Assembly: GCF_000227665.2 (NCBI RefSeq)
Contig: NZ_CP007030.1
Coordinates: 1-64,000 of the forward strand
DNA: 64,000 nucleotides
Reading direction: 5' to 3'
From: Thiomicrospira aerophila AL3
GTDB taxonomy: Bacteria > Pseudomonadota > Gammaproteobacteria > Thiomicrospirales > Thiomicrospiraceae
The notes below the pieces were generated by a model that saw nothing but the letters and a program-made list of their open reading frames with translations, was not told the DNA's origin and ran no database searches. This document shows, piece after piece, positions 26,119 through 43,406 of the stretch; the first letter of the stretch is position 1, and every line of letters starts with the position of its first letter. The position numbers and the translations under genes are program-made.

Positions 26119-26829
26119 ATGATTAGCAAATCACATTTATTAAACATGCCTTGGCAACGCTTAACGCTATTGGGTTTATGCCTATTGATTGCGCTGGTGT
26201 GGTTGGGTATTTGGCAGTCCAATAAGGCCTACGCTCAAGTTACGATAAACTTTAATCAGTTTAACCAACAGTTGGTGCAAAAGTTTGGCGCTCGGCGCTT
26301 ACCTGTTGGACAAGCTTGGCAACAACTTGTAACCGAATTAAACGGCTTGTCTGACGTCCAAAAATTGCAACGCGTGAATGCTTTTTTTCACCAAAATGTA
26401 CGCTATCGTACCGACCAACAACTTTATGGCATGGAAGACTATTGGGCTACACCGCTAGAAACCTTGGGACATGGACTGGGTGATTGTGAGGACTATGCGA
26501 TTGCTAAATATATCACCTTGCGCAAAGCGGGCTTAACAGATCAGCAGTTACGACTTATTTATGTTCGTGCCAATGTGCGTGGTCGGGTGGAAGCTCACAT
26601 GGTTCTGGGCTACTACGCAACCCCCAATGCAGAACCGTTAATTTTAGACAGTTTAATCCCCCGAATTTTACCGGCCTCGCAGCGAACTGATTTAACACCG
26701 GTGTTCAGTTTTAATGCCCAAGGCTTGTGGGCTGGCAACCAGCGTTCAGCTTCTAGTCCAACGGCGCGGTTGTCGCGCTGGCGATCAGTATTAGATCGCT
26801 TAGCGGCAGAAGGAATTTATTTTGAATAG
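26119..26829 (+). CDS. lapG: Periplasmic adhesin-cleaving cysteine protease LapG
   Basis: Transglutaminase-like (peptidase C93) protease that cuts the N-terminal retention module of large adhesins when c-di-GMP is low. The 236 residues start with a membrane-spanning signal (about 13-35). The catalytic triad is visible: Cys123 in GLGDCEDYAIAKY, His160 in VEAHMVLGYY, Asp177 in LILDSL. lapD follows after 20 bases. The two adhesins with matching Pro-Ala-Ala-Gly sites lie 9-14 kb away in the same locus. Confidence 0.93.
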   Translation: MISKSHLLNMPWQRLTLLGLCLLIALVWLGIWQSNKAYAQVTINFNQFNQQLVQKFGARRLPVGQAWQQLVTELNGLSDVQKLQRVNAFFHQNVRYRTDQQLYGMEDYWATPLETLGHGLGDCEDYAIAKYITLRKAGLTDQQLRLIYVRANVRGRVEAHMVLGYYATPNAEPLILDSLIPRILPASQRTDLTPVFSFNAQGLWAGNQRSASSPTARLSRWRSVLDRLAAEGIYFE

Positions 26830-26849: not shown

Positions 26850-28766
26850 ATGTCGTTAATTAAACAGCTTTGGCTTGGCATCATAGGCCTACTACTGATT
26901 GCTTTTATAAGCAGCTTTTTTGTCAGTGTTTACAACGCAAAAGGCTATTTTGAAGAGCAGTTGAATCTAAAAAATAACGACAACGCGCAAAGTCTGGCGT
27001 TATCGCTGAGTCAAATGGATAAAGAGCCTGTAATGGTTGAGCTCTTTATTGCTGCGCAATTTGATACCGGGTACTACCGACGTATTGAGTTACAAGATCC
27101 AACCGGTGAAGCTATCCAACGCCGAGTTTTTGATGATTTAGAGGCATTGAGTGTTCCTGCTTGGTTTGAACAGCTTGTCGATTTAAATATACAGCCTGGC
27201 ATCGCGCAGGTCCAAGACGGTTGGCAGCAGTTTGGAACGGTTTATGTAGAAAGTCATGATCGATTTGCTTACGAAGCGCTCTGGCAAAGTACGATTCAAC
27301 TTAGTATGTGGTTATTGATCATTGCACTTGTATCCGGATTGATTGGGACCTTGTTATTAAAAACCGTTATTAGGCCGTTAGATTTTGTGGTGGCGCAAGC
27401 CGAGGCGATGGGAGATCGACGTTTTTTAGTTGGACATGAGCCCAAAACACTTGAGTTTGGTCGACTTGTGCGCGCGATGAATAAACTATCTGGACGAATT
27501 AAGGGTATGTTGGAGCGTGAATCTCAGCGCTTGGAGAGCTTACGAGCCTCAGTCTCCTTGGATAATACGACAGGTTGTTTGAACCGTGACTATATTATTG
27601 GGCAGCTTGATGCGGTGTTGGCAGATCGAGAAAACGCTGCAACACACGGTGCGTTAATGTTGCGCGCAAAAGCCTTGCAAGAATGTAACCAAACTCTTGG
27701 TCGTCAACAAGTTGATGCTGAGCTTAAAGCACTGGTTCATCAAATTAGTATGGACCTCGGTTTAGAGACAGCCAGTAAGGAGTTCATAGGACGCCTAAAC
27801 GGTACAGATTTTGTAGTTTTGTTACCGGATGAACTGGATAATCACCAGGCCTGGTGTCAGACCTTGCGTGAACATTTAGCCGCAAGACCGATTGATTATG
27901 CGATGGCGTTTACCAGCTATAAGTGTTCAGAAGCACGTGGACATTTGTTAGCACGCCTCGATGGCCTGTTAGTTCGCGCCGAACAACAAGCTGCCACGGC
28001 GCTTGAGTTCTTAACAGGCAGTGAGGAAACCACAGCTAGTCAGCCGGTTTTAACCGAAAGTGATTGGGCAAAGTGCTTACAGCATGCATTAGAGTCCAAT
28101 GAAGTGGCCGTGTCTGCTATCAGTTTTGCCTATTTTCCAACCCAAGATAGTGAAGGTCAGGTATGGCATCAAGAGGCGATGCTCCGTTTAGGTTGTGGAC
28201 AGCAAACCTTTACCGCTTGGCAAATCTTGCCTTGGGCAAAACGCTTTAAAAAAGTCGCTGAATTAGATGAGCGTGTACTTGAAAAAGCGTTACAAGCCTT
28301 AACAAAAAATCCAACGCTTCAACTAGCCGTTAATTTGAGTGTTACCACGATTGCTATTGAAGCGGTTCGCAACCGACTTTTAGCACGATTGCAGGCGAAC
28401 CAAGCACTTACAAGTAGATTGTACCTAGAATTTAATGAGCAAGAGTTAATGCATCAACTTGATCAGGCAAAAACAGCGCTGCTCACGTTGCAGCAAACTG
28501 GTTGTAAAATTGGGATTGAAAAGGTCGGTTCAGATGTTTTAAAAACGCCAAAAATTCAAGAACTGGGATTGGATTATTTGAAAGTTAACAGTGTGTTTGT
28601 AAGGGAATTTATTGCGAGTAATAATGACGCCTATTTACGCGGCATTATTAATCTAGGTCATACTTTAGGTATGACCATGATTGCAGAGGGGGTGATGGAG
28701 CCACAAGAAATCCCGCGCTTAATCGATTTAGGTTTTGATGGTGTGACCGGTCCAGGTGTAGGTTAA
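26850..28766 (+). CDS. lapD: LapD-type c-di-GMP receptor controlling LapG
   Basis: Inner-membrane receptor that binds c-di-GMP through a dead EAL domain and then holds LapG on its periplasmic domain. The 638 residues have TM1 (about 5-27), a periplasmic LapD/MoxY-type domain, TM2 (about 150-172), HAMP, then degenerate GGDEF (RLNGTDF) and EAL domains. Catalytic residues are lost: ELTE is EFNE, the DDFG pair is EKVG, and the end reads GVTGPGVG instead of a QGYFF motif. This is the expected pattern of a receptor, not an enzyme. It overlaps the convergent 73-residue gene by 4 bases. Confidence 0.93.
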   Translation: MSLIKQLWLGIIGLLLIAFISSFFVSVYNAKGYFEEQLNLKNNDNAQSLALSLSQMDKEPVMVELFIAAQFDTGYYRRIELQDPTGEAIQRRVFDDLEALSVPAWFEQLVDLNIQPGIAQVQDGWQQFGTVYVESHDRFAYEALWQSTIQLSMWLLIIALVSGLIGTLLLKTVIRPLDFVVAQAEAMGDRRFLVGHEPKTLEFGRLVRAMNKLSGRIKGMLERESQRLESLRASVSLDNTTGCLNRDYIIGQLDAVLADRENAATHGALMLRAKALQECNQTLGRQQVDAELKALVHQISMDLGLETASKEFIGRLNGTDFVVLLPDELDNHQAWCQTLREHLAARPIDYAMAFTSYKCSEARGHLLARLDGLLVRAEQQAATALEFLTGSEETTASQPVLTESDWAKCLQHALESNEVAVSAISFAYFPTQDSEGQVWHQEAMLRLGCGQQTFTAWQILPWAKRFKKVAELDERVLEKALQALTKNPTLQLAVNLSVTTIAIEAVRNRLLARLQANQALTSRLYLEFNEQELMHQLDQAKTALLTLQQTGCKIGIEKVGSDVLKTPKIQELGLDYLKVNSVFVREFIASNNDAYLRGIINLGHTLGMTMIAEGVMEPQEIPRLIDLGFDGVTGPGVG

Positions 28767-28984: not shown

Positions 28985-29629
28985 TTACTTGTACCCCCGA
29001 TAAATCAACATTAACTGCATGCGATCTTTTGCTCCCGTCTTGGCTAGCAAATTACTCATGTGTTGTTTAACAGTGCGTTCCGTTATGTTAAGTTGAGTAG
29101 CAATTTTCTTATTAGTTAAACCCTGGCAGACCTGTTCAGCGACATCATGCTCACGAGCCGTTAAATCGAATGACGCAGTATTTTTAGAGTCAGTCGCTGT
29201 CGCTGCATTACGCTTTAACAGCTTATCACTGGCACCAACTAATCTAGATAACAACTCAGCAGGTAACCACATCGAACCTGCCGCGAGGGTTTGTTCAATT
29301 TGTTGCAGAATAGTGGCGTTAGCCGTGGCGTCTGTATAAGCCTTCGCGCCCAAGCCTATCGCCTCTTGAAATTCCGCAAAAGACTTTTTAAACGACATCA
29401 CCGCGCAAGGAACCTTGTGTTGGTTTAATCCACGTAACCAGGCCTGCCACTCAGGATGATCTGTGCATATCCATGCCATTTTAGGTAGAGTAAGGTGCGA
29501 CTGTTGCTCGAATTCCTCAAGGTTAAGTGAGGTTTTAGTAATGCCAATCTTAGTCCATTCTGGATGTTCAAAACGATTAAGCATAACCAACATTTGTGAG
29601 GCAGTAGGTAGAAGGGTATCAGTTTTCAT
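28985..29629 (-). CDS. LuxR/CsgD-type transcriptional regulator of the lap locus
   Basis: 214 residues. The C-terminal third is a clear LuxR helix-turn-helix (LTAREHDVAEQVCQGLTNKKIATQLNITERTVKQHMSNLLAKTG in pattern). The N-terminal part looks like a receiver fold without the usual acidic pair, so phosphorylation is doubtful; a CsgD-like pseudoreceiver is likely. It starts 12 bases after the lapC stop on the same strand, suggesting co-transcription with the secretion genes and autoregulation. DNA targets are unknown; the AT-rich intergenic regions before the adhesins are candidates. Confidence 0.85.
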   Translation of the reverse strand: MKTDTLLPTASQMLVMLNRFEHPEWTKIGITKTSLNLEEFEQQSHLTLPKMAWICTDHPEWQAWLRGLNQHKVPCAVMSFKKSFAEFQEAIGLGAKAYTDATANATILQQIEQTLAAGSMWLPAELLSRLVGASDKLLKRNAATATDSKNTASFDLTAREHDVAEQVCQGLTNKKIATQLNITERTVKQHMSNLLAKTGAKDRMQLMLIYRGYK

Positions 29630-29641
29630 AGTTATTATTCC

Positions 29642-31054
29642 TTAACGCTCAGTCATTGCATTTGAGGTAGCTCGTAGCACAGGTTTGAGCAAATAATCTA
29701 ACACGCTCTTTTTCCCAGTTAGAATGTCTACTTGCACAGTCATACCAGGAATTAAAACCATATTGGCCGGGATTAACGAATCATCTGTCTGCAGTCGCAC
29801 AAGATAATAGGTTTCATCCTTCTCATCGGTGATAGTGTCGGCACTGATATGAGCCACCTTGGCATCAAACGCACCATAAATCATAAAGTCATAGGCGGTG
29901 AATTTCAGTCGTGCATTTAGGCCTGGACGTATGTTGGCGATGTCACGAGGGGCGATGCGAGCTTCGACGATTAAGGTATCATCTAGCGGCACAATTTCCA
30001 TAACTTCCCTACCTGGTGACACGACACCGCCAACGGTATTAACATAAAGACGTTGAATAGTGCCACGGACAGGCGAGCGTAATTCGGTTTGACGCACGCG
30101 GTCTTCAAGACCGGCTTCTGCTTCACTTAAGGTCGCCAAACGCCCCACGCTTTCGCTGAGTTGCGTGCGCCACCGTGTGACAGCAACCGATTCAATTTCT
30201 TTGATACGAATTTCAGCTTCTTCAATCGCTAGGTTTAACCGGCGAATGGTCACCTCAGTACGATTGAGCTCACCCTGGGCATTTGCAAGATCGCGCTCCA
30301 AACGAATTACATCGACTTCGGAAACAGCACCAGAGCGTAATAAAGGCCGGGTAAAGTTAAGCTCACGACGTGTAGTAGAAAGGACTTCCTGTTGTTGCGT
30401 TCTAGCCATCTCAGCCTCTTTAAGTTCTTCACGGCGTTGTGCAAGTTGAGACCGGGCAATCTCAAGCTGTTCGGCCAGCTCTTGACGCGCTGATTGATAC
30501 AAGGCTAATTCTTGAATAAAGATAACCGGATGTTCTGCGCGAATGGCCGGATCAAACTCCGGTGGGCGTCGCTCAATTAATGCTTGCAGTCGTTCAATTT
30601 CAGCACTTAAGCTAGCCACTTGGGCGCGGTTTTCACGAAAACTCGCCGTGGAGCGGGTTGCATCAATAATAACAAGCGGGTCGCCGCGTTCGACAGTTTG
30701 GCCTTCGCGAACTAAAATATCCTGCACTATCCCGCCATCAAGTGATTGAATAATTTGCAATTGTTGTGATGGGATTATACGACCATCACCGCGCGTTATT
30801 TCATCCAACTCGGCCCAGTTAGCCCAAACAATTAGCGCAATAAAAACTAATACAACAATGTATAGCAAGCGTCTTGCACCTGTGGGTTCCTGGTTAATAT
30901 AAGCCGGTTCATGTTTAATAACCCAATCAGGACTGGCTTTAAAAATTTTATTTGCAACGGCTTGAGTCGTTTTAGCGTGCGTGATTTTGCTGATTTGGTC
31001 AAAACCCTGTTGTTCGCTAGAACGGCTAGTTGGCTTTTTGCTTTCATTGCTCAT
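29642..31054 (-). CDS. lapC: Type I secretion membrane fusion protein LapC (HlyD family)
   Basis: Periplasmic adaptor joining the LapB transporter to the outer-membrane channel. 470 residues: cytoplasmic N-terminus, one membrane helix (about 65-83), lipoyl-like halves (DGGIVQDILVREGQTVERGDPLV and ELRSPVRGTIQRLYVNTVGG) on either side of a long coiled-coil hairpin, and a C-terminal beta-barrel region (IPGMTVQVDILTGKKSVLDYLLKP) typical of HlyD proteins. It starts one base before the lapB stop region, so the two are tightly coupled. Confidence 0.93.
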   Translation of the reverse strand: MSNESKKPTSRSSEQQGFDQISKITHAKTTQAVANKIFKASPDWVIKHEPAYINQEPTGARRLLYIVVLVFIALIVWANWAELDEITRGDGRIIPSQQLQIIQSLDGGIVQDILVREGQTVERGDPLVIIDATRSTASFRENRAQVASLSAEIERLQALIERRPPEFDPAIRAEHPVIFIQELALYQSARQELAEQLEIARSQLAQRREELKEAEMARTQQQEVLSTTRRELNFTRPLLRSGAVSEVDVIRLERDLANAQGELNRTEVTIRRLNLAIEEAEIRIKEIESVAVTRWRTQLSESVGRLATLSEAEAGLEDRVRQTELRSPVRGTIQRLYVNTVGGVVSPGREVMEIVPLDDTLIVEARIAPRDIANIRPGLNARLKFTAYDFMIYGAFDAKVAHISADTITDEKDETYYLVRLQTDDSLIPANMVLIPGMTVQVDILTGKKSVLDYLLKPVLRATSNAMTER

Positions 31055-33223
31055 TTAAGACGCCCCACTCACTTTACCTTTCTTCAACGCATCCAATACC
31101 GTATCTTTTGGACCATCTGCGACAATTTTGCCATGATCAATGACCATCACACGTGTTGCGAGAGCTAAAAGAGATGTTCTGTGGGTACTAATAATCGCGG
31201 TACGATCAGTTAAATAAGTACTCAGATTTTTCTTAATAACCTCTTCGGTAGCGTGGTCTAAAGATGAAGTGGGCTCATCGAGTAAAACCAGATTGGGCTC
31301 ATAAGCTAAGCCTCGAGCTAGACCAATTAACTGTTTTTGACCACCAGACAAACGTTGTCCGCCTTCGCCTACCTCAGAGTCCCAACCGGCATCAGCCTGA
31401 TTAAGCAACGGTTGCAGCTGAGTGAGTTCGGCGAGCTGAACGAGTTGTTCGTCAGCTAAAGGGTTACCCGTAACAATGTTATCTTTAATACTTCCCATAA
31501 ATAGACGGATGTCTTGCGGGACATAGCCAATATATTCACGTAACTGTGCTGGGTCAATTTGATGAATATCCACACCATCTACAAAAATTTGGCCATTGGT
31601 CGGTTGATAAAGACCGAGTAATAGTTTTTTTAAGGTTGATTTACCCGAACCATTGCGACCTAGGATAACTAACTTGTCACCGGGATTAAGTTTAAAACTA
31701 ATGCCTTTCAAGCTAGATTGTTCATTGTTTGGATAGTTAAATTCAACATTCTTGAATTCTACAGCGCCCTTTAACTTGGGACGTGACACCCAGCTTTTAC
31801 CTTTTGGTCGTTCAACATCTTCTTCCATAATAGTATTAACTGCATCTAAAGCAGTTTTAGCTTGATGGTATTGCCCAAGCAGGCCTGCTGCCTGAGCAAC
31901 AGGCGCCATCGCACGAGAGGACAGCAAGTAAGCGGCAATTAAGCCACCTTGTGATAACTGGCCGTCTATAATTAAATAGACCCCAATGATGACAATACTC
32001 ACTGCAACGAGATGTTGAGTGGTTTGCGCCATGTAATTAATAGAACTGGCTACAAATCGATTGCTAGACTGAGTTTCAGCTAAAAATTGCGTAGCCTGTT
32101 CCCAATAGCGTTGTAATTTACCTTCACGGCGGAAACTCTTGAGGTGTTCAATGTTGCTTACCCCTTCAATTAGCTGGCCGTTGCGCATAGCACTGGCCTG
32201 CTGGCTATTTTCCGCGAGTTGTTGCAGTTTAACCTGAGCAATCAATGCATAGAGCAGCACAATTATCGCCCCCACAACAATAGGTGCCGCCATAATGGGG
32301 GCAATAATAAATATAATAAATGTAAATAGGAAAATGAACGGAAAATCGACTAGCGCGATCAGTGTCATAGAGCCGATAAAACCACGCAAATGCTCAAAAG
32401 ACTGAATACTGGCGGCAAAGGAGCCTGAGGAAGCAGGACGGTTTTTTAATTGTCGATTAAGCACTCGCTCCATAATATTGGCGGAAATCTTAATGTCTGC
32501 ACGCGTGGCCGCCAGATCCACAAACCAACTTCGCATAATCTTTAGGGTAAAGTCGGCCACTAATACGACTAACAAGCCTACGCTCAATACCCAAAGGGTT
32601 TCGGTGGCAAAGTTAGGTACGACGCGATCATAGACATTCATCACGTAGAGCGGCATCGCCACTGCAAATAAGTTAATTAAAATAGAGGCAAGTAATACAT
32701 CACGGTAAATTCGGCGGTTTTCTTTGATAACCGACCAAAACCAATGCTTATTGGTGTCTTGTTTTAATTGCTTGCTTGTTTCAGCAACTTGAAACTCCGG
32801 CCGCACATATGCCACGTTTGGCAATTTGCCTGGAATGAGCCCCAGCTGGGTTTCTGCATCTTGCCAATGAAGGGTGTGGGGCTCATGGGTATCGGGATTA
32901 ACTACTGAAATGCTTTGTGACGCAGAGTCGACTGAGGTTATTACCCAGGTTTGACCCTGTTTACTGGTCATAAGAGCGGGCAATAGCGCTGGATTGAGTT
33001 CAGTAATGCGCCGAGATTTCCAAGCGACACTAAAGTCAGCTCGTGCAGCAGCGCGAGCTAATAAATTGGGAGTGAGTCGGTCGGCTTCAATTGGAAGCCC
33101 TTGAGTGGCCGACGCAGCAGAAAGCGGGCGCTCGTGGTGTTGACATATCCACAATAAACCCGCTAGAAGGCTTGACTCGTTAGGGACTTGAGCCCCCTGT
33201 TGTTCTTCTGTCATTTTCAGCAA
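31055..33223 (-). CDS. lapB: Type I secretion ABC transporter LapB
   Basis: Inner-membrane ATPase that exports the RTX adhesins. 722 residues: N-terminal C39-like domain (1-140) without the CGPA-type catalytic cysteine motif, so a binding rather than processing domain; a six-helix membrane domain (about 165-440); and the ATPase with Walker A LGRNGSGKST, signature LSGGQKQLIGLARG and Walker B LVLLDEPTSSLD. Followed immediately by lapC. It carries one CAGGCCTG site. Confidence 0.94.
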   Translation of the reverse strand: MLKMTEEQQGAQVPNESSLLAGLLWICQHHERPLSAASATQGLPIEADRLTPNLLARAAARADFSVAWKSRRITELNPALLPALMTSKQGQTWVITSVDSASQSISVVNPDTHEPHTLHWQDAETQLGLIPGKLPNVAYVRPEFQVAETSKQLKQDTNKHWFWSVIKENRRIYRDVLLASILINLFAVAMPLYVMNVYDRVVPNFATETLWVLSVGLLVVLVADFTLKIMRSWFVDLAATRADIKISANIMERVLNRQLKNRPASSGSFAASIQSFEHLRGFIGSMTLIALVDFPFIFLFTFIIFIIAPIMAAPIVVGAIIVLLYALIAQVKLQQLAENSQQASAMRNGQLIEGVSNIEHLKSFRREGKLQRYWEQATQFLAETQSSNRFVASSINYMAQTTQHLVAVSIVIIGVYLIIDGQLSQGGLIAAYLLSSRAMAPVAQAAGLLGQYHQAKTALDAVNTIMEEDVERPKGKSWVSRPKLKGAVEFKNVEFNYPNNEQSSLKGISFKLNPGDKLVILGRNGSGKSTLKKLLLGLYQPTNGQIFVDGVDIHQIDPAQLREYIGYVPQDIRLFMGSIKDNIVTGNPLADEQLVQLAELTQLQPLLNQADAGWDSEVGEGGQRLSGGQKQLIGLARGLAYEPNLVLLDEPTSSLDHATEEVIKKNLSTYLTDRTAIISTHRTSLLALATRVMVIDHGKIVADGPKDTVLDALKKGKVSGAS

Positions 33224-33313: not shown

Positions 33314-35158
33314 TTAATTGCTAGCTGTCACACGTGCCTCTATACGACGATTTATCTCATTAGCAGCTGGATTGATTTCGTTTATAATCGGACGGTTTAC
33401 ACCATATCCTACTGCGGTAATACGATCTGGATTAACATTAAAATCGTTAATTAACGCCTCTGCAATAGCATTGGCACGGCGTTGTGACAAATCCATATTG
33501 TAGTCAAAGTCCCCATCTAAAGATGCGTGCCCGGCAATTTCAATATTGGTGTCAGGGAAGCGTGCCATAAAGTCAGCAATATTTTGAATATCGTCCATAA
33601 ATTCTGGACGAATCACAGCAGAGCTCACTTCAAATAACACATTAACTTCATAGGTGGTTTCTTCACCATTAAACGCCCATTGTTCTGGATCTTCAGGGAA
33701 GGGTTCTAGTTCAACCTCAACATGGGTGTCAATCACTTCTGGCACTGGACAGAATGCGCCAGGATTTGAGATGTCCGATGCACCTAAGTCTTCCAAAGTA
33801 GGTAACTGGTCACGGGTAATGCCTAGGTTATTAACTAAACTGCCTGTGTTAGCCTGAATGCGGGCTTGGGCAACGTTGTAATCAAATTGTGCGTTAATGA
33901 GTGCGCGGCTCGCTTCAAAGTATTCACTTTCGGCGGTTAATAAGTCTAATAGAGTACGTTGGCCTAAATCAAACTGATCACGATAGGCAAGGCGCACGCG
34001 GTCAGCTGAATCTCGGTGACGTTCTAAAGTCGGTAATTCCGACTGTAAACGGCTACCATCGTTGAAGGCAATTTGTACTTCTTGTCTTACGTCCACGCAG
34101 CTCTTGTCACGCAAGCTATTGGCAACATTGATTTGTTCAAAAGCACGGCTGATGCTGGCCGCATCACGACCACCACGATAGAGGTTAAAGCGAGCTTCAA
34201 TACCAATACTGGCATCACGACGCAGCTCATCCAAGCGTTGACCTGAAGAGTCAGAATCACGGTAGCCAAAACGACCCGTTAAGTCCACCTCAGGCATATA
34301 GTTAGAACGCTGACGTAGTTCACCTTTTTCTTCCGCCTCAATATTGCGCATGCTGGCTAGAAAGCTTGGATTACTGGTATAGGCTGTCGTAATGGCATCC
34401 ATTACGGTGCTAGGAATTACATCATTCACAAAGGTTAATGAACTCATCTCAGCCGGTGGTTGTGTGCCCACAATTCGTAGGTAACGCGCGCTCACGTCAT
34501 GCAAATTTGCACGCTCTGTTGACGCATTGGTTTCTGCTAGTGCGACACGGCCATTAATTTGGTCTAAGTCAGCCTGACGTCCGACACCGGCATTCACTGA
34601 GCGTTCAACCTGACGTTGCACAATTCGGTGTGCTTGAAGGTTTTGTTCGGCTAGGCGCACCAATTCGCGCTGCTTAGCAACATCTTGGTAGGCTTGGAAG
34701 CTGGCGTAAGTGATGCGTTCAATATCAGCAAGCAATTCATAATAGCGGGTCAAACGTACTTTCTCTGCTTGACCGATATCGTTACGAACACGGTTGCCAT
34801 TAAACAACGACTGGCGCAACTGTAGTTCTATATTACTACTAGTAAAGTTACGTTTACTATTGGCACCTAAATCATAATCCCGGTCAATTTGTTGCACGCT
34901 GCCCACGAGGTCTAAAGTAGGTAGATTGCCGCCACGGGCAATATCAATATCAAAACTGGTGGCGACAAAGGCATGCCAGCTTGCGGCGACTTCTGGATTG
35001 TTTTGTACAGCTTGACGTGCAATGGATACAAAGTCATGCCCAGCATTTGGATTAGTTAAAGCAGAAGTTATAGGTTCAACAAAGGATTCATTAGCGTGAA
35101 GTGAATTAAAAGCAAAGGCGCTGCAGAGCGCAATAACTAGCGTTTTTTTCTTGAGCAT
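33314..35158 (-). CDS. lapE: TolC-like outer membrane channel fused to an OmpA peptidoglycan-binding domain
   Basis: Outer-membrane partner of LapB/LapC. From ATG 35158 (better than 35206 because a clean signal peptide MLKKKTLVIALCSAFAFNSLHA follows) it is 614 residues. Residues about 45-455 form a TolC-type efflux domain with two repeats (LRQSLFNGNRVRNDI; RFNLYRGGRDAASI). After a proline- and glutamate-rich linker, residues about 490-614 form an OmpA domain (VNVLFEVSSAVI, IEIAGHASLDG, LSQRRANAIAEAL, EINRRIEARV). In other Lap systems these are often two proteins. First gene of the lapE-lapB-lapC strand; 90 bases separate it from lapB. Confidence 0.9.
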   Translation of the reverse strand: MLKKKTLVIALCSAFAFNSLHANESFVEPITSALTNPNAGHDFVSIARQAVQNNPEVAASWHAFVATSFDIDIARGGNLPTLDLVGSVQQIDRDYDLGANSKRNFTSSNIELQLRQSLFNGNRVRNDIGQAEKVRLTRYYELLADIERITYASFQAYQDVAKQRELVRLAEQNLQAHRIVQRQVERSVNAGVGRQADLDQINGRVALAETNASTERANLHDVSARYLRIVGTQPPAEMSSLTFVNDVIPSTVMDAITTAYTSNPSFLASMRNIEAEEKGELRQRSNYMPEVDLTGRFGYRDSDSSGQRLDELRRDASIGIEARFNLYRGGRDAASISRAFEQINVANSLRDKSCVDVRQEVQIAFNDGSRLQSELPTLERHRDSADRVRLAYRDQFDLGQRTLLDLLTAESEYFEASRALINAQFDYNVAQARIQANTGSLVNNLGITRDQLPTLEDLGASDISNPGAFCPVPEVIDTHVEVELEPFPEDPEQWAFNGEETTYEVNVLFEVSSAVIRPEFMDDIQNIADFMARFPDTNIEIAGHASLDGDFDYNMDLSQRRANAIAEALINDFNVNPDRITAVGYGVNRPIINEINPAANEINRRIEARVTASN

Positions 35159-35469: not shown

Positions 35470-38400
35470 ATGGAACCTACTATCATTGTAAACAGTATCA
35501 CTGGCCAAGCCGAAATTCGCAACGCTAATGGCGAGATCCAAGCGATTCAAGCAGGCGATAACCTTGCGCTAGGCGATGTGTTGGTAATTAACCAAGACAG
35601 CATCGTGTTTTTAGATGTCGATGGTACGATTTTACCCTTTTATGGTGAGCTAGAAGTAGATGTAGTAGCTAACATGCAGCCAATACAGGCTTTCGATATT
35701 GATGATGTGGCTTTAAATGAACCGGCGGTAGCGGAAATGCTGGCGATTCTTGAAGGCGAAGGCGACCTATTAGATGAGTTAGAAGCACCAGCAGCAGGCG
35801 CGGGTGTGGATGAAGACGGCGTGGACGATAGTTTAGTGCGCCTAAGCCGTATTGTTGAAACGACTGATCCCCTTGCCTTTGATGGGTTTGAGCAGGCTGA
35901 TGCGACAACCCCCGTTTTTGATCCTGTCACGGCTACAGCGTTAGATAATGAAACACCTATTGTTCCTTCAAGCATTGATGTAGCTATGGCAGATGTCTAT
36001 AGCGGTAACATGTTTGCTGTTCCAGTAACCGGAACCACTACCGGGGTTGCCGCCGGTTCAACGGTAATCATTACGGTAACAGATCAAAACGGTGCTAGTG
36101 CTTCAGGCACGGCGACTGTCCAGGCAGACGGTTCTTACCAAACAGAAATAAATCTAACCAGTTTAAACGATTCAACTCCAGCGCAGTCTGGTGAACCAGT
36201 TCTCACTGATGGCCCTCTTACAGTTACAGCCGTGGTAACCGACCTAAACGGTTCACCTATATCTGCCGATAATGAGGCGGATATGGACGCAACTATTGGC
36301 ACGCCGGTGATTACATTAGAAGCGGCGGATGCGAATGGAGATGGCATTTACAATGCGGCTGAGCTAGGTGAAGACGGTACGATTAGCGCGACGATCAGTG
36401 TAGCGGGATCAGAAGTGGGCGACACCTTGACCTATGGTGTGACTGGCGGCGAGTCAGTCAGTGTTGTGTTGACAGAAGAGAATATTACGAACGGGATAGT
36501 GGTTGCGATAGCGCCAGAAGCGACGATAACCGCGCAGCTAAGTGACCCAGCCGGTAACGAGTCAGGGGTTGCGAGTGCGACCGCGTTGCCAGCGGATGTT
36601 GTGCCCCCAAGTCTTGAAATTAGTATTGATGAAGAGACGGGTGTCGTGACCTTCACGTTCAGTGAAGAAGTGATGGGCTTTGATGCAACGGACATCGATG
36701 TTGATAACGGCACGATTGCTAACCTGACGACCACCGATAACATTACGTGGACAGCGGATTTAACGCCGGCTGCGGACTTTGAAGGTGATGTCGTTGTAAC
36801 GGTAGCGGATGACAGCTACACGGATCTAGCGGGCAATAACGGTACGGGTAACAGTGCAGAGATTACGGTTGATACCAAAGCCCCAAGTCTTGCAATTAGC
36901 ATCAATGAAGACGCTAGTGTCGTGACCTTCACGTTCAGTGAAGAAGTGACGGGCTTTGATGCAACGGACATCGATGTTGATAACGGCACGATTGCTAACC
37001 TGACGACCACCGATAACATTACGTGGACAGCGGATTTAACGCCGGCTGCGGACTTTGAAGGTGATGTCGTTGTAACGGTAGCGGATGACAGCTACACGGA
37101 TCTAGCGGGCAATAACGGTACGGGTAACAGTGCAGAGATTACGGTTGATACCAAAGCCCCAAGTCTTGCAATTAGCATCAATGAAGACGCTAGTGTCGTG
37201 ACCTTCACGTTCAGTGAAGAAGTGATGGGCTTTGATGCAACGGACATCGATGTTGATAACGGCACGATTGCTAACCTGACGACCACCGATAACATTACGT
37301 GGACAGCGGATTTAACGCCGGCTGCGGACTTTGAAGGTGATGTCGTTGTAACGGTAGCGGATGACAGCTACACGGATCTAGCGGGCAATAACGGTACGGG
37401 TAACAGTGCAGAGATTACGGTTGATACCAAAGCCCCAAGTCTTGCAATTAGCATCAATGAAGACGCTAGTGTCGTGACCTTCACGTTCAGTGAAGAAGTG
37501 ACGGGCTTTGATGCAACGGATATTGTTGTTGCTAACGGCACGATTGCTAATTTAGTACAAGACCAAAACGACCCGACCGTTTGGACAGCGGACTTAACGC
37601 CGGCTGAGGGCTTTGAAGGTGATGTCGTTGTAACGGTAGCGGATGACAGCTACACGGATCTAGCGGGCAATAACGGTACGGGTAACAGTGCAGAGATTAC
37701 GGTTGATACCAAAGCCCCAAGTCTTGAAATTAGTATTGATGAAGAGACGGGTGTCGTGACCTTCACGTTCAGTGAAGAAGTGATGGGCTTTGATGCAACG
37801 GACATCGATGTTGATAACGGCACGATTGCTAATTTAGTACAAGACCAAAACGACCCGACCGTTTGGACAGCGGACTTAACGCCGGCTGAGGGCTTTGAAG
37901 GTGATGTGGTTGTAACGGTTGACGATAACAGCTACACGGATCTTGCAGGTAATCTAGGTACTGGTGACAGTGCAGAGATTACGGTTGATACCAAAGCCCC
38001 AAGTCTTGAAATTAGTATTGATGAAGAGACGGGTGTCGTGACCTTCACGTTCAGTGAAGAAGTGACGGGCTTTGATGCAACGGACATCGATGTTGATAAC
38101 GGCACGATTGCTAACCTGACGACCACCGATAACATTACGTGGACAGCGGATTTAACGCCGGCTGCGGACTTTGAAGGTGATGTGGTTGTAACGGTTGACG
38201 ATAACAGCTACACGGATCTTGCAGGTAATCTAGGTACGGGTAACAGTGCAAATATAACAATCCTCCCAACCCCAACCGTTTCACTTGAGATCAACTCAGT
38301 GTATGGGTTTGAAACAGCGTTAATTGACGATATAGCCAGCCTAGGGGTCGGCGGTTCAGGTAGTGGTATTATTAATGACACTAACGTGCCAGTTGATACA

Positions 38401-40119
38401 TCCGGTGATATTGTTCTTGACTTTGGTGTTGCTAATGCTGGCCAAACCATTACCTTCACCTGGACACAACAAGCTAAGGGCGGTTGGGAAAATGGCGAAC
38501 CTGGGACTCGTGCAGGAACTAGAGATACCTTTAAGGTCTTTGTAAATGGCGTTGAGGAATACGAAACATCTTGGTATGACCCTGCAAATAACAATAACAC
38601 TGTTTTTGCCCCTGAAAATCAGTCTCTAACCATCGTTCTGGACAGTGACGGTAAGGCCACTATTCGTTTTGATGTTGCCTCTACACATCCTGATGAAATA
38701 GTCGATATTTCAAATATTTCGGCAGTTCTAGTTACTCAGACGCTAATTCATGAAGTATCGATTGACGGAGCCATTAGTTCGGGTGAAATTGATTACTATG
38801 TTGTTAACGTAGATGGTGGTGTATTGTTGTTTAACGGTAATGCAATGCAACCTGAGTCTGATGGAAGTTACATCGTTCTACCGACACAACTGGGCAGCTT
38901 AACTGTACGTGACTTGGGTGATCCTGATTTCAGTGTGACGGCTGTTGCGGTCAGTGATAAAGGTGTTGACAGTCAACCGGCTGAAGTCATAGTAGTTATT
39001 GCCGACATTCCATTACCTGAATTCGATGCCGTATCAATTGACAACCTAACAACTCTTTCTGAAGTGGGTGTCAATATTGTAGAGCCTGTATTTAATGGCT
39101 TGGGTAATAATGACTTTGCGGTTTCCTCAACTTCAGTTAATCCTAATAATCAGGGGCAGGTAATTGAATCAAATACACTACCAACTACTGGTACAGGTAG
39201 GACTAGAAACCTCGTAATTGAAACTGTACCAGGAAGCAATGAAACACATTACCTGCAAGTAGGTGATGTTTATCAGTTAAGTTGGGAAGTTGCTACAAGA
39301 CAAAACGGAGGCTGGCAAGCACGCTCTATGACTGGGACAGTTACTAGGTCAGACCAATTATCAAATGGTGAGAGTATTGTTGTTTTTACCGGTAGCATTA
39401 ACGGCCAAGCTGCGACACTCGTTATTGATTCTAGTGGTATTAGTGGTGGTTATTTTGCAAATGATCAATTCGTTAATTCTACAATCGGATTCAGAGAAGT
39501 TGAGCTTTCTGGCCAGGCTGAGGCTGGTTCAGCTATTGAGTTGTTCGATGCATCCAATGCTTCAATTGGCACGACTGTGGCTGATACGAATGGTAACTGG
39601 ACATTTAAGATTTCTCCTGTGACCGCAGATACCGGTACCTATAGAGTAGAGGCAACCGACTTTATGGGTAACGTTACAGTTGATCAGAAAACTTTCTTGC
39701 TTGGTTCGCCTCAAGGAGAGACTTTGACGGGTACAGCGGGTAACGACATCATCTACGGTGGTGCTGGTAACGACACAATTGTTGGTGGCGAGGGTGACGA
39801 CATGTTAACTGGTGGTTTTGGTGATGATGTATTTAAATGGAATTTCGGTGATCAAGCTGTGAACGGCTATGCTATTGATACGATTACTGATTTCAATGTA
39901 GGCGCGAATCGTCTTGATTTATCGGATCTACTGCCTAGTTTGAGAGAAACCAATATTGAAGACTATATTAATGTAGCGGTTGCTAACGGTGATACGACAA
40001 TTAATATCTCTTCAACGGGAGACTTAAACAATAATATCGATCAGAAAATCGTTCTTCAAGGTGTTGAAATTCAACAGGGCGATTTACTTCAGTACTTGAT
40101 TAATATTCCGCAAGACTAA
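35470..40119 (+). CDS. Giant RTX adhesin with LapG-cleavable retention module, copy 1
   Basis: 1549 residues. Residues 1-100 form the retention module that plugs the outer-membrane channel (MEPTIIVNSITGQAEIRN; GDNLALGDVLVINQ). A Pro107-Ala108-Ala109-Gly110 sequence is the expected LapG cut site. After an Ig-like region, six 92-94-residue repeats (about 379-935) follow, then domains of unknown fold (about 935-1400), an Ig-like module, Gly-Asp RTX nonapeptides (GGAGNDTIVGGEGDD) and a C-terminal type I secretion signal domain (DTITDFNVGANRLDLSDLLP). No N-terminal signal peptide, as expected. Calcium binding by the RTX part is inferred from family knowledge. Confidence 0.93.
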   Translation: MEPTIIVNSITGQAEIRNANGEIQAIQAGDNLALGDVLVINQDSIVFLDVDGTILPFYGELEVDVVANMQPIQAFDIDDVALNEPAVAEMLAILEGEGDLLDELEAPAAGAGVDEDGVDDSLVRLSRIVETTDPLAFDGFEQADATTPVFDPVTATALDNETPIVPSSIDVAMADVYSGNMFAVPVTGTTTGVAAGSTVIITVTDQNGASASGTATVQADGSYQTEINLTSLNDSTPAQSGEPVLTDGPLTVTAVVTDLNGSPISADNEADMDATIGTPVITLEAADANGDGIYNAAELGEDGTISATISVAGSEVGDTLTYGVTGGESVSVVLTEENITNGIVVAIAPEATITAQLSDPAGNESGVASATALPADVVPPSLEISIDEETGVVTFTFSEEVMGFDATDIDVDNGTIANLTTTDNITWTADLTPAADFEGDVVVTVADDSYTDLAGNNGTGNSAEITVDTKAPSLAISINEDASVVTFTFSEEVTGFDATDIDVDNGTIANLTTTDNITWTADLTPAADFEGDVVVTVADDSYTDLAGNNGTGNSAEITVDTKAPSLAISINEDASVVTFTFSEEVMGFDATDIDVDNGTIANLTTTDNITWTADLTPAADFEGDVVVTVADDSYTDLAGNNGTGNSAEITVDTKAPSLAISINEDASVVTFTFSEEVTGFDATDIVVANGTIANLVQDQNDPTVWTADLTPAEGFEGDVVVTVADDSYTDLAGNNGTGNSAEITVDTKAPSLEISIDEETGVVTFTFSEEVMGFDATDIDVDNGTIANLVQDQNDPTVWTADLTPAEGFEGDVVVTVDDNSYTDLAGNLGTGDSAEITVDTKAPSLEISIDEETGVVTFTFSEEVTGFDATDIDVDNGTIANLTTTDNITWTADLTPAADFEGDVVVTVDDNSYTDLAGNLGTGNSANITILPTPTVSLEINSVYGFETALIDDIASLGVGGSGSGIINDTNVPVDTSGDIVLDFGVANAGQTITFTWTQQAKGGWENGEPGTRAGTRDTFKVFVNGVEEYETSWYDPANNNNTVFAPENQSLTIVLDSDGKATIRFDVASTHPDEIVDISNISAVLVTQTLIHEVSIDGAISSGEIDYYVVNVDGGVLLFNGNAMQPESDGSYIVLPTQLGSLTVRDLGDPDFSVTAVAVSDKGVDSQPAEVIVVIADIPLPEFDAVSIDNLTTLSEVGVNIVEPVFNGLGNNDFAVSSTSVNPNNQGQVIESNTLPTTGTGRTRNLVIETVPGSNETHYLQVGDVYQLSWEVATRQNGGWQARSMTGTVTRSDQLSNGESIVVFTGSINGQAATLVIDSSGISGGYFANDQFVNSTIGFREVELSGQAEAGSAIELFDASNASIGTTVADTNGNWTFKISPVTADTGTYRVEATDFMGNVTVDQKTFLLGSPQGETLTGTAGNDIIYGGAGNDTIVGGEGDDMLTGGFGDDVFKWNFGDQAVNGYAIDTITDFNVGANRLDLSDLLPSLRETNIEDYINVAVANGDTTINISSTGDLNNNIDQKIVLQGVEIQQGDLLQYLINIPQD
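36604..38277 (+). repeat. Six tandem 276-282-bp repeats in adhesin 1
   Basis: Copies begin at about 36610, 36886, 37162, 37438, 37720 and 38002, counted at the shared AGT codon. Units are 276 bp, or 282 bp where VQDQNDPTVW replaces TTTDNITW. Copies 2 and 3 appear to differ by a single base (ACG or ATG in the T/M-GFDATD position). Each unit encodes an Ig-like bacterial surface domain ending TDLAGN..GTG.SAEITVDTKAP. Variants are shuffled between copies, suggesting recombination. Confidence 0.95.
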
Positions 40120-40154
40120 CCGCCAGGCCTGGTATTAACCAGTGTTATTACCTT

Positions 40155-40188
40155 AACCCCGCTCGCTTTGGCAAGCGGGGTTTTTTTA
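40155..40188 (+). terminator. Rho-independent terminator after adhesin 1
   Basis: AACCCCGCT pairs with AGCGGGGTT across a 10-base loop, followed by a T run. A CAGGCCTG palindrome lies 24 bases upstream. The same arrangement is repeated after adhesin 2. Confidence 0.9.
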
Positions 40189-40282
40189 TTAAAGCTTGTG
40201 TTGTGTATATTAATCTGAGATATAAAAAAAATTTTATGCATTTATCATTTATTTTAAAACCCCGTACTAAGGTCCAATATTT

Positions 40283-40296
40283 ATTTGCTAGCAAAT
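40283..40296. promoter_or_regulatory. 14-bp perfect palindrome upstream of adhesin 2
   Basis: ATTTGCTAGCAAAT is a perfect inverted repeat 51 bases before the adhesin 2 start, in an AT-rich gap. It could be an operator for a dimeric regulator. No matching copy was found before adhesin 1. Confidence 0.4.
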
Positions 40297-40346
40297 AGGT
40301 AAACTAATAAATAAGAAATATCCAGATACCACTCAAGGAGAAAATC

Positions 40347-43300
40347 ATGGAACCGACTATCATTGTAAACAGTATCACTGGCCAAGCGGAAATTCGTAAC
40401 GCCAATGGCGAGATCCAAGCGATTCAAGCAGGCGATAACCTTGCGCTAGGCGACGTGTTGGTAATTAACCAAGACAGCATCGTATTTTTAAATGTCGATG
40501 GTACGATTTTACCCTTTTATGGTGAGCTAGAGCTAGATGTAGTCGCTAACATGCAGCCAACACAGGCTTTCGATATGGATGATGTTGCGCTGAATGATCC
40601 AGCGGTAGCGGAAATGTTGGCTATTCTTGATGGCGAAGGTGATCTACTAGATGAATTAGAAGCACCAGCAGCAGGCGCCGGTGTTGATGAAGACGGTGTG
40701 GACGATAGTTTAGTGCGCCTAGTTCGTGTTGCCGAGTCCACAGATCCGCTTGTGTTTGAGAGTTTTGCGGCTGAAGATGCCACAACCCCAACTTTTGATC
40801 CTGTCACGGCTACAGCGTTAAATACAGACGAAGAAGAAACAGCAGTAGTTATTATTCCTTCAAGCATCGATGTAGCTATGGCAGATGTCTATAGCGGTAA
40901 CATGTTTGCTGTTCCAGTAACCGGAACCACTACTGGCGTTGCCGCCGGTTCAACTGTAATCATTACGGTGACAGACGACTTTGGTAACAGTGTAAATGGG
41001 TCGGCCATTGTTAATGAGGATGGCAGTTACTCAACAACTATCGATTTTTCGAATCCAAACCCAGGCTCAGATAGCGAGTCTTTTAATGGTGAGCAGTTCA
41101 TTGATCAAGAACCTCTACTTGTGATTCAACCACCCTCACAGCCAATTTTGCTTGATGGGCCGTTAACTGTTATTGCAGAGGTTGAAGACTTAAACCTTGT
41201 TGTAATCAACGCTGATAATACAGCGATGATGGATACGATTGCAGAACCAGGCATTGTTATTATTGATGACATTACAGCAGATGACATCATCAACATTGTA
41301 GAGAGTAATTCACAAATAACTGTAACAGGAACGGCTTCGGGTGGTGATATATCTGTAGGTGATCCATTTACAGCAGTAATAAATGGAAATTCTTATGATG
41401 GAACAGTTGGTGAAAACGGAGCTATAAGTTTTGTTGTAGCAGGTGCTGATCTTGCAGTTGATAAAGAATTTACGATTAGTGTTACATCGAGTGATGCAGC
41501 AGGTAATACAGTTGTGAGCACGGGAACATCAACACATACAGTAGATCTTGAAATTAACCTAGTCAATGATGTTAACACTGCAACATTTGGTAGCGTTATT
41601 GCAAGCAATGATGATACAAATCTTTTGGCCAATGACGATGAAGACGTAATTGCCGTTACGTCAGTTAATGGTCAGTCAGTGGGGTCTGAGCCAGTAGTTG
41701 TAAACGGCAACTTCGGTACCTTGACAGTTAACAGTGATGGCTCATACAGCTATCAATCTACAGCGGAAATAAAGCTGTACGGGTTTAATGATGGTGACAG
41801 CAAATTGGCTGACGGTTCTATTTTAAATATGCTAACACCACAAGCCATGCACGAAGTGTCATTCCAAAGAGATGGCGTAGGTGTTAAAGGAATGGGTAGT
41901 TACTCATCACATGGTGCCCCAAACCAGATCATTGATACAGGCAACGCATTAGTTGCTGATTTAGGCGGCACGGCTACAAAAGCATCTTTTGATGTGACGC
42001 GTTTATTCAAAACTGAAGCTACAGGTGAACTAGGTAAATGGTACGCTTACAGCTCGGACGGAACGCTCGTTGGTTCAGGTGAATTTGGGCGTGATGGTGA
42101 AAATGGTTTTACGTTTAAATCAGGAAGCAACCATGAGGGTACGGTTAATATTGACATAGCGGGTGGATTCCAATATCTTGCGTTCGAGGGATTGCCTTAC
42201 GAGAACTCTACCAACACTAGAGACGGTGGTGATTTCTTTGTAAGTAATATCCGTGTGGTTGACTCATTTGAATACACGGCTGTTGATGCGGCTGGCAATT
42301 CAAGTACCGCAACCCTAGATATTACTAAAACGCAGGAATTGAAAAATCTAGTAAACAGCTTACCAGAATTGCCTAACACAGCTATTCCAGAAATTTCATT
42401 TGATGTAACAAGCGAGGAAGTGAGCAATACAACTACAATTTCATCAACTGCAAAGCAAGTTTTAAACTATGGCGGTGGTAATGGTTCGAAAGTATCACAC
42501 GAAATTAAGCTTGGCTCTGAAGCAGATGAGATTACGCTAAACATTAAATTGACCGGAAATGGCAGTGCGACAGGCACGGTTACATTTTATAAGGATGGCG
42601 AAAAAGTTGGTGAAACCTCTTTAGCGAATGGTAACCAATCCTATAGTGTCAATGATGGTGTCTTTGACTCCGTTTTAATCACCCATACTGGAACACCTGG
42701 AAATGGCAATTCCGCAATTCATTTAGAAGGGTATAGCGCCACTGTATCTGCGTCTGGGTTTGTCAATACCATTACGATAAAAGCAAGTGTCGATGGTGCG
42801 TTGTTGAGTGATGTCGAAGTAGCCGGGTTAGCTGGTTTCAACGGAAGCTATGCTCTAGCAGATGACGGCAGTTTGACTTACACATTTATTAGTGAAGAAG
42901 CGCTCACGCCAGAGGATATTGCTGGTATTACAGCCACAATCTCGGCATTAAATGAGGGCGGTGAAGTTTTAGCTACAACTACTACAAATGCAGCGGGTGA
43001 TTTGACGATAGTGGGCGGTGATGCAAATGATGTTATCTCTGGTGGTGCCGGTGATGATATCCTAACCGGTGGTGCCGGTGATGATATCCTAACCGGTGGT
43101 GCCGGTGATGACGTGTTTGTTTGGACTCTTGACGACGTTGTTGCAGGTCAAACCTTTGTTGATACCATCACCGACTTTGGTAATGGAGCCGACAAGATTG
43201 ATGTAAGTGATTTGTTACCTGATGGTGTAACGAGTGATAATATTAGCCAATATATTTCTTTCTCTTCGGATGGAACAGATACTACATTGAGCATCACGAC

Positions 43301-43406
43301 AGAAGTAAATGGACAGCAATCCACGCAGGAAATTGTGTTGCAGGGTTATGAAGTTACTAGCCATGAGCAATTATTGAGTTATTTGGCTAACATCCCAACT
43401 GAGTAA
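40347..43406 (+). CDS. RTX adhesin with LapG-cleavable retention module, copy 2
   Basis: 1019 residues. The first ~195 residues are nearly identical to adhesin 1, including Pro107-Ala108-Ala109-Gly110 and the segment MADVYSGNMFAVPVTGTTTG. The middle differs: an Ig-like module, a VCBS-like domain (TNLLANDDEDVIAVTSVNG ... GTLTVNSDGSYSYQS), a region around LYGFNDGDSKLADGS and a beta-rich region near GSKVSHEIKLG. RTX repeats (GGAGDDILTGGAGDD) and a type I secretion signal (DTITDFGNGADKIDVSDLLP) close the protein. AAGGAG precedes the ATG. It should use the same exporter and the same LapG release. Confidence 0.93.
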   Translation: MEPTIIVNSITGQAEIRNANGEIQAIQAGDNLALGDVLVINQDSIVFLNVDGTILPFYGELELDVVANMQPTQAFDMDDVALNDPAVAEMLAILDGEGDLLDELEAPAAGAGVDEDGVDDSLVRLVRVAESTDPLVFESFAAEDATTPTFDPVTATALNTDEEETAVVIIPSSIDVAMADVYSGNMFAVPVTGTTTGVAAGSTVIITVTDDFGNSVNGSAIVNEDGSYSTTIDFSNPNPGSDSESFNGEQFIDQEPLLVIQPPSQPILLDGPLTVIAEVEDLNLVVINADNTAMMDTIAEPGIVIIDDITADDIINIVESNSQITVTGTASGGDISVGDPFTAVINGNSYDGTVGENGAISFVVAGADLAVDKEFTISVTSSDAAGNTVVSTGTSTHTVDLEINLVNDVNTATFGSVIASNDDTNLLANDDEDVIAVTSVNGQSVGSEPVVVNGNFGTLTVNSDGSYSYQSTAEIKLYGFNDGDSKLADGSILNMLTPQAMHEVSFQRDGVGVKGMGSYSSHGAPNQIIDTGNALVADLGGTATKASFDVTRLFKTEATGELGKWYAYSSDGTLVGSGEFGRDGENGFTFKSGSNHEGTVNIDIAGGFQYLAFEGLPYENSTNTRDGGDFFVSNIRVVDSFEYTAVDAAGNSSTATLDITKTQELKNLVNSLPELPNTAIPEISFDVTSEEVSNTTTISSTAKQVLNYGGGNGSKVSHEIKLGSEADEITLNIKLTGNGSATGTVTFYKDGEKVGETSLANGNQSYSVNDGVFDSVLITHTGTPGNGNSAIHLEGYSATVSASGFVNTITIKASVDGALLSDVEVAGLAGFNGSYALADDGSLTYTFISEEALTPEDIAGITATISALNEGGEVLATTTTNAAGDLTIVGGDANDVISGGAGDDILTGGAGDDILTGGAGDDVFVWTLDDVVAGQTFVDTITDFGNGADKIDVSDLLPDGVTSDNISQYISFSSDGTDTTLSITTEVNGQQSTQEIVLQGYEVTSHEQLLSYLANIPTE
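43041..43115 (+). repeat. 27-bp tandem repeat encoding RTX nonapeptides in adhesin 2
   Basis: Two exact 27-bp units (43041-43067, 43068-43094) and most of a third encode GGAGDDILT-type calcium-binding nonapeptides. Exact DNA identity points to recent unit duplication by slippage or unequal exchange. Confidence 0.85.

Follow-up and report, generated by a model that had tools for sequence, protein, structure and literature searches.

When an attached cell is pulled, its retained surface adhesin has to hand the load on to some other structure, and in the usual Lap picture the path ends with a channel in the lipid membrane. In Pseudomonas fluorescens, the TolC-like channel LapE is reported to retain the adhesin until LapG cleaves and frees it (PMC6890996). 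The locus described here raises the question of whether such a channel can itself reach the cell wall: its channel protein ends in an OmpA-like domain. The locus lies in the window, by which we mean the whole 64,000-nucleotide stretch of Thiomicrospira aerophila AL3 DNA that was analysed (positions 1 to 64,000 of NZ_CP007030.1). We consider it probable that the protein is the LapE-type outer-membrane channel of a complete Lap adhesin system and that it has its own wall-engaging tail. The gene and its parts are as follows, with conservation given for A3, a 35-row alignment of proteins chosen by OmpA profile.

33314..35158, minus strand: fused TolC-OmpA channel (LapE-type), 614 residues plus stop (Pfam, NCBIfam, structure model, Foldseek)
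33824..35032, minus strand: TolC channel domain, residues ~43-445 (structure model; PF02321)
33659..33823, minus strand: acidic linker, residues ~446-500 (structure model; sequence)
33323..33658, minus strand: OmpA-like domain, residues ~501-612 (Pfam, structure model, Foldseek)
34097-34099, minus strand: Cys354, in the channel part, invariant in 35/35 rows of A3 (alignment)
33749..33751, minus strand: Cys470, where the tail begins, likewise invariant in 35/35 rows of A3 (alignment)
33521..33523, minus strand: Ser546, aligned to the diaminopimelate-binding Asp (D271) of A. baumannii OmpA (alignment)
33476..33478, minus strand: Arg561, counterpart of R286 in A. baumannii OmpA, conserved in 35/35 rows of A3 (alignment)

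Translation of the minus strand gives 614 residues without a stop (the coordinates include the stop codon), and the plus strand of the same interval has stops throughout. The ATG start lies at 35158 with AGGA 8 bases upstream; the longest possible frame, from a TTG 48 bases upstream of the ATG, has 630 residues. Pfam places OEP (PF02321) on the protein in two stretches (162.3 bits, cut-off 22) and OmpA (PF00691) on residues 508-604 (67.6 bits, cut-off 27.2), and the NCBIfam model for type-I-secretion TolC, TIGR01844, scores 250.9 bits against a cut-off of 225.15. The structure model, built on 35 sequences, shows a TolC part with two barrel hairpins and long helices, a low-confidence linker (pLDDT <50 at residues 477-488 and 490-499) and an OmpA domain at pLDDT ~90. 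In Foldseek, the front of the protein matched TolC (1ek9, E 3e-20), and its end matched the C-terminal domains of OprF (5u1h) and A. baumannii OmpA (3td5), with target-normalised TM scores of 0.86-0.89, the 3td5 match being the one at 0.89. The sequence-only reading, which named no strand, had taken channel and OmpA domain for one continuous 614-residue frame, and the frame scan, Pfam and the model agree with it. The linker is strongly acidic (15 D/E vs 1 K/R in residues 446-505), and a disulfide between the two invariant cysteines could clamp the start of the tail to the channel. We found no second full-length homologue in the 2.16-Mb source genome, where the next match is a plain channel of 23% identity, and counts of promoter-like and terminator-like sites were not above shuffled means.

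The surrounding genes are those of a Lap system.

26119..26829, plus strand: LapG-type cysteine protease (PF06035 54.3 bits, cut-off 27; NF045674 216.2 bits, below its cut-off of 320)
26850..28766, plus strand: LapD-type c-di-GMP receptor (PF16448, GGDEF, EAL; NF045673 373.1 bits, below its cut-off of 1020)
28985..29629, minus strand: LuxR-family regulator, last gene of the export operon (PF00196)
29642..31054, minus strand: LapC/HlyD-type adaptor (TIGR01843 401.8 bits, cut-off 208.65)
31055..33223, minus strand: LapB-type ABC exporter (TIGR03375 841.4 bits, cut-off 693.1)
35470..40119, plus strand: adhesin 1, 1549 residues, with retention module, PAAG site at residue 107, Big_12 repeats and RTX repeats near the end (NF033682 54.3 bits, cut-off 50)
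40347..43406, plus strand: adhesin 2, 1019 residues, with the same PAAG site at residue 107 and RTX repeats near the end (sequence comparison)

Exporter, adaptor and regulator follow 3' of the channel gene on the same strand, then come lapG and lapD on the plus strand, and the two tandem adhesin genes are divergent from the channel gene. The LapG-type protein (C93 family) has GDCED, AHMVL and LILDS stretches that hold the expected Cys, His and Asp, presumably its catalytic residues. Both adhesins carry EAPAAGAGVDEDG near residue 107, and we take the PAAG motif there to be the LapG cleavage site. Residues 1-301 of adhesin 2 are 72% identical to residues 1-279 of adhesin 1. Judged by these domain assignments, which also place the fusion inside a Lap locus as previously read, the predicted set is complete: LapG, LapD, LapB, LapC and two adhesins with retention modules. 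Of note, the adhesins (35470-43406) have similar retention modules, the same LapG-type site and different middles, and they may compete for one channel type. A LuxR-family regulator also lies 3' of lapC in many of the fetched Lap loci, from several families.

To place the fusion among related channels, we used a census of TolC matches (query P0001, E 1e-25), which gave 54 matches in 48 of 369 gammaproteobacterial genomes and may miss remote channels. Stretches of up to 20 kb were fetched for 53 of the 54 matches, so that genes farther away are missed; the remaining match (G051:C11) was assigned to the short channels by the length of its frame. None of the 369 genomes reached the LapG family cut-off, and LapG was therefore called by E-value. 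Regions anchored on LapG (n=40) lacked LapB in 31 cases and TolC in 38, and all counts were therefore taken from the TolC-anchored census. The 54 channels comprise 12 with a C-terminal OmpA domain, one with an N-terminal OmpA domain, three with SPOR, one joined to another barrel and 37 that are short. LapG lies in the stretch of 23 channels, two of which share one locus (G300): 11 are fused, ten have no OmpA domain in the stretch, one has a separate OmpA and one is fused to the other barrel. Thus, the OmpA domain is not needed for a Lap system. The earlier view of the fusion as an exceptional form is not supported, as it is about as common as the plain channel in this sample. The outcome that the sequence-only reading had named as counting against it, fusion as the commonest form in all Lap loci, is thus borne out by half.

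A C-terminal OmpA domain occurs in 11/23 channels with LapG in the stretch and in 1/30 without (Fisher p 1.6e-4, uncorrected for kinship), and the genome of that single exception has LapG elsewhere. Counted by genome, the fusion is present in 12/33 with a strong LapG match and 0/15 without one (p 0.009, again with no kinship correction; G148, among these 15, does show a weaker LapG match). The 12 fused channels spread over nine family codes. On independent pairs of the tree, the association of fusion with LapG does not show (median p 1), with six pairs only and so with little power. Two other arrangements stood out: a reverse-order fusion with OmpA N-terminal to the TolC channel in one frame and no Lap genes in 16 kb (L108:9327-11162, G304), and a TolC channel continuous with a BBP2_2 beta-barrel, adjoined in the same Lap locus by a plain TolC (L107:6576-9176, G300).

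In the window's own order, nine of the 20 fetched regions (up to 20 kb) are fused, and no separate OmpA gene lies in any of these nine stretches. The other 11 have channels without OmpA; a separate OmpA gene is present in eight, beside lapG in seven of those eight, and among the three plain Lap loci without one, two stretches (L057, L060) stop inside lapG or shortly behind it. L061, also among the 11, has C-terminal SPOR matches in two stretches in addition to its separate OmpA. In four fused loci of the order (L051, L052, L053, L054), a protein of 975-998 residues with a LapD-like GGDEF/EAL end replaces the adjoining LapG and LapD; these loci also carry a second ABC protein, cut by the stretch in three of the four. 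In G051, LapG is encoded elsewhere (L201).

Fused channels are found, for example, in Thiomicrorhabdus, Marinobacter, Alteromonas, Halomonas and Methylophilus. Among the matches listed, the best 80 of 574 confirmed candidates in named genomes, a sample that favours OmpA-bearing rows, include 34 with an OmpA tail by profile, three from Gilvimarinus with a diverged OmpA, 19 with an NTF2-like Cds6_C tail, one with SPOR alone and 23 short (L051 is the same locus as L206, and L099 the same as L252). As a control for the OmpA scan, none of 27 distinct other OEP proteins, nor three more chosen for long frames, had an OmpA domain. Among the open-licence papers listed by searches on such channels, no title or abstract start describes an OmpA, SPOR or NTF2 tail on one, which is weak evidence of absence from print. 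We conclude that the fusion is a real, fairly common and widespread variant. The linker between channel and OmpA varies in its own right, with a Big_9/cadherin-like domain in one group, L132 and L134 (Pfam) and L135 and L199 (alignment), and with thrombospondin-3-like stretches, read from sequence, in L049, L097 and L100.

The tails themselves are of several kinds. SPOR tails, three among the 54 census channels, also occur in L061, L217 and L215, the last of which (Halomonas fontilapidosi) carries OmpA and SPOR in a row. SPOR domains are septal-wall binders, and the SPOR fold has peptidoglycan-binding members. Of the 19 loci with an NTF2-like tail, 17 have LapG in the stretch. A profile of 17 of the 19 tails finds Bd1075 (E 3e-14), Csd6 (2e-11) and Pgp2 (2e-9) in the PDB, and the same three are the first matches among solved structures for an AlphaFold model of one tail (mean pLDDT 80). 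The NTF2 pocket of Campylobacter Pgp2 is reported to bind peptidoglycan, with five pocket residues that matter (PMC8038945); Tyr233, Lys307 and Glu324 are identical in all 17 tails, Phe242 is kept in 13 (Tyr in the other four), and Lys257 is Arg in 16.

Closely related channels differ in what they carry. In Halomonas, the OmpA+SPOR channel L215 and the SPOR channel L217 are 73% identical, and L217 is 86% identical to L098, which has no tail domain; the Methylotenera channel L242 (OmpA) and the Methylophilus channel L270 (NTF2) are 73% identical, and L243 (NTF2) and L256 (none) are 81% identical. The short tail of L098 (L098:9154-10668, G423) ends like a SPOR domain, as if an internal in-frame deletion had taken the rest. 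A quick tree of 100 channel domains, tails excluded, requires 19 changes of tail label and 11 of OmpA label, and starred branches force at least six of the 11; these parsimony counts do not distinguish gain from loss. Such differences between channels of 73-86% identity suggest that selection acts on contact with the wall and not on OmpA as such. Our preferred reading of the tail is a wall-engaging module that can be exchanged between unrelated folds, OmpA, SPOR or Pgp2/Csd6-type NTF2. The best argument for tails that act on the wall comes from the NTF2 tail, which occupies the same position as an independent solution. We lean, if only somewhat, towards the general form of this statement, that in Gammaproteobacteria, Betaproteobacteria and Desulfuromonadales the Lap-type adhesin channels end in an exchangeable wall-binding module, for which three or more unrelated folds are in use (OmpA, SPOR and Pgp2/Csd6-type NTF2). 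If it is true, wall grip would be a general and so far unrecognised part of holding half-secreted adhesins, and species would gain, swap and lose it when their habitat or wall chemistry changes.

In the window, wall engagement could work as follows. A single protein joins channel and OmpA-fold domain through a flexible linker, and the locus supplies its exporter, a LapG/LapD switch and two adhesins, both with retention module and LapG-type site; this much is shown by the analysis. A channel trimer would offer three OmpA domains to the peptidoglycan, and the N-terminal retention module of the adhesin would plug the channel, so that a pulling force on the adhesin could run through plug, channel and linker to the wall and not to the lipid bilayer alone. 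The equatorial ring of E. coli TolC has been proposed to meet peptidoglycan (PMC13082787), and tails that leave the channel near this ring, three per trimer, could bind the wall directly. Load bearing is the most attractive and the least tested part of this role.

The tail might instead serve to position or assemble the channel, by way of the wall or where the wall is growing, without bearing adhesin load. The SPOR domains of related channels speak for such a task, and two of the three SPOR-tailed census channels (G189, G081) are in genomes without a strong LapG match; a wall-binding tail is thus not tied to retention in all cases, and tails may serve secretion or placement besides retention. 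There are also precedents: the NTF2 domain of Bd1075 is described as targeting its enzyme to one cell face (PMC8938487), and E. coli YbjP is described as binding TolC, where it may stabilise orientation and is not needed for efflux (PMC13082787). We nevertheless regard positioning alone as unlikely, since every OmpA-tailed channel of the census comes from a genome with a LapG match (the 12/33 vs 0/15 above), which points to retention over general secretion.

Load transfer through the wall also requires us to consider the pocket of the window's own OmpA domain. Calorimetry of A. baumannii OmpA is reported to show that D271 and R286 are critical for diaminopimelate binding (PMC6572160). In the window, R286 has its counterpart in Arg561, and D271 is replaced by Ser546. 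The position holds Asp in 36, Ser in 18 and Cys in one of 55 fused OmpA domains (a set with at least one duplicate locus) and Asp in 12/12 separate OmpA proteins. GHASL is found there in the rows of the window's order, in four of five Alteromonas and in G406, GHASK in Marinobacter and GHTS in Alteromonas lipotrueiana. The pocket is thus changed in the window's group; wall binding there is not to be assumed because of the Asp to Ser change, and canonical binding by this domain is putative. The serine, present throughout the window's subfamily, would fit a lineage in which the domain has lost canonical wall binding and is either on its way to loss or has another task, for instance to hold LapG, the retention module or the trimer together. 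Tails can indeed be lost, as in the G423 channel, which keeps only a remnant of the tail of its SPOR-bearing relative. Against this, Asn554 and Arg561 are kept in 35/35 rows of A3, the model shows an intact fold, and among solved structures the wall-binding domain of OprF is the closest relative (E 1e-23), so that we hold loss of binding to be quite improbable. The proposal that the fusion anchors the channel to the wall therefore survives in part: it is the likeliest role and is strengthened by the unrelated wall-binding tails of related channels, and it is weakened by the serine at the critical position in the window's domain.

Separately encoded OmpA partners, which the sequence-only reading had described as frequent in Lap systems, do exist. 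In Shewanella oneidensis, the OmpA-like SO4321 is reported to have its own gene between the secretion genes and bpfG, its deletion affects biofilm, and the published model is that it helps BpfA to localise on the outer membrane, the authors calling the part of this gene in the process not known (PMC4523816). On a Vibrio harveyi plasmid, a TolC gene is followed after a 2-base gap by a separate OmpA gene; the plasmid (pvh2, typed conjugative; L328:615-9886) also carries a divergent gene for a large Ig-like protein. The third case is the plain-channel sister operon type of the window's own order. We considered whether simple joining of neighbours in such a sister operon gave rise to the fusion and reject it: in most loci OmpA is at one end and TolC at the other, and on the tree the channels of the two types belong to different large clades. 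The two genes abut in one locus of the order (L058). The OmpA-domain tree, with 14/71 inner branches starred, is compatible with one origin of the fusion or several. That the window's gene is itself an artefact, in which an error of sequencing or frame has merged two genes, might be suspected from partners that are separate in some relatives and 2 bases apart on the V. harveyi plasmid, but has practically no chance of being right, with single frames through both domains listed for 10/62 genomes of the order, the window included, and both Pfam domains in 35/35 of the OmpA-profile-chosen A3 proteins.

If the channel is tied to the wall by swappable domains, the Lap load path becomes testable by cutting or exchanging one tail. 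Among known systems, that of P. fluorescens (LapA, LapBCE, LapD, LapG) is matched in that all protein types adjoin in the window locus and that the adhesins have a retention module and a PAAG-type site. Pseudomonas LapE is described as a TolC-like channel and is not known to have such a C-terminal tail, whereas the window channel has its OmpA tail. The PF00691 domains of OprF, A. baumannii OmpA and Pal share with the window domain the fold and the Arg and Asn of the motif, but the window domain has Ser where Asp is reported to be critical for diaminopimelate. The NTF2-like domain of Pgp2, Csd6 and Bd1075 is homologous to the betaproteobacterial channel tails, with pocket residues largely kept; it is joined to an LD-carboxypeptidase there and to the channel in betaproteobacteria, and is absent from the window. 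TpgA, the partner of the trimeric autotransporter adhesin AtaA, is likewise OmpA-like and periplasmic and is proposed to strengthen a giant adhesin (PMC5861075; PMC13082670), by simulation as a separate reinforcement (PMC13082670). Unlike the window's tail, TpgA is a separate lipoprotein and serves a type V adhesin, the window system being type I. The Bpf system of Shewanella oneidensis is described as likewise pairing a channel, AggA, with an OmpA-like protein (PMC4523816); SO4321 comes from its own gene, whereas the window's OmpA domain belongs to the same protein as the channel, and a channel tied to the wall would also offer a role for the separate Shewanella gene.
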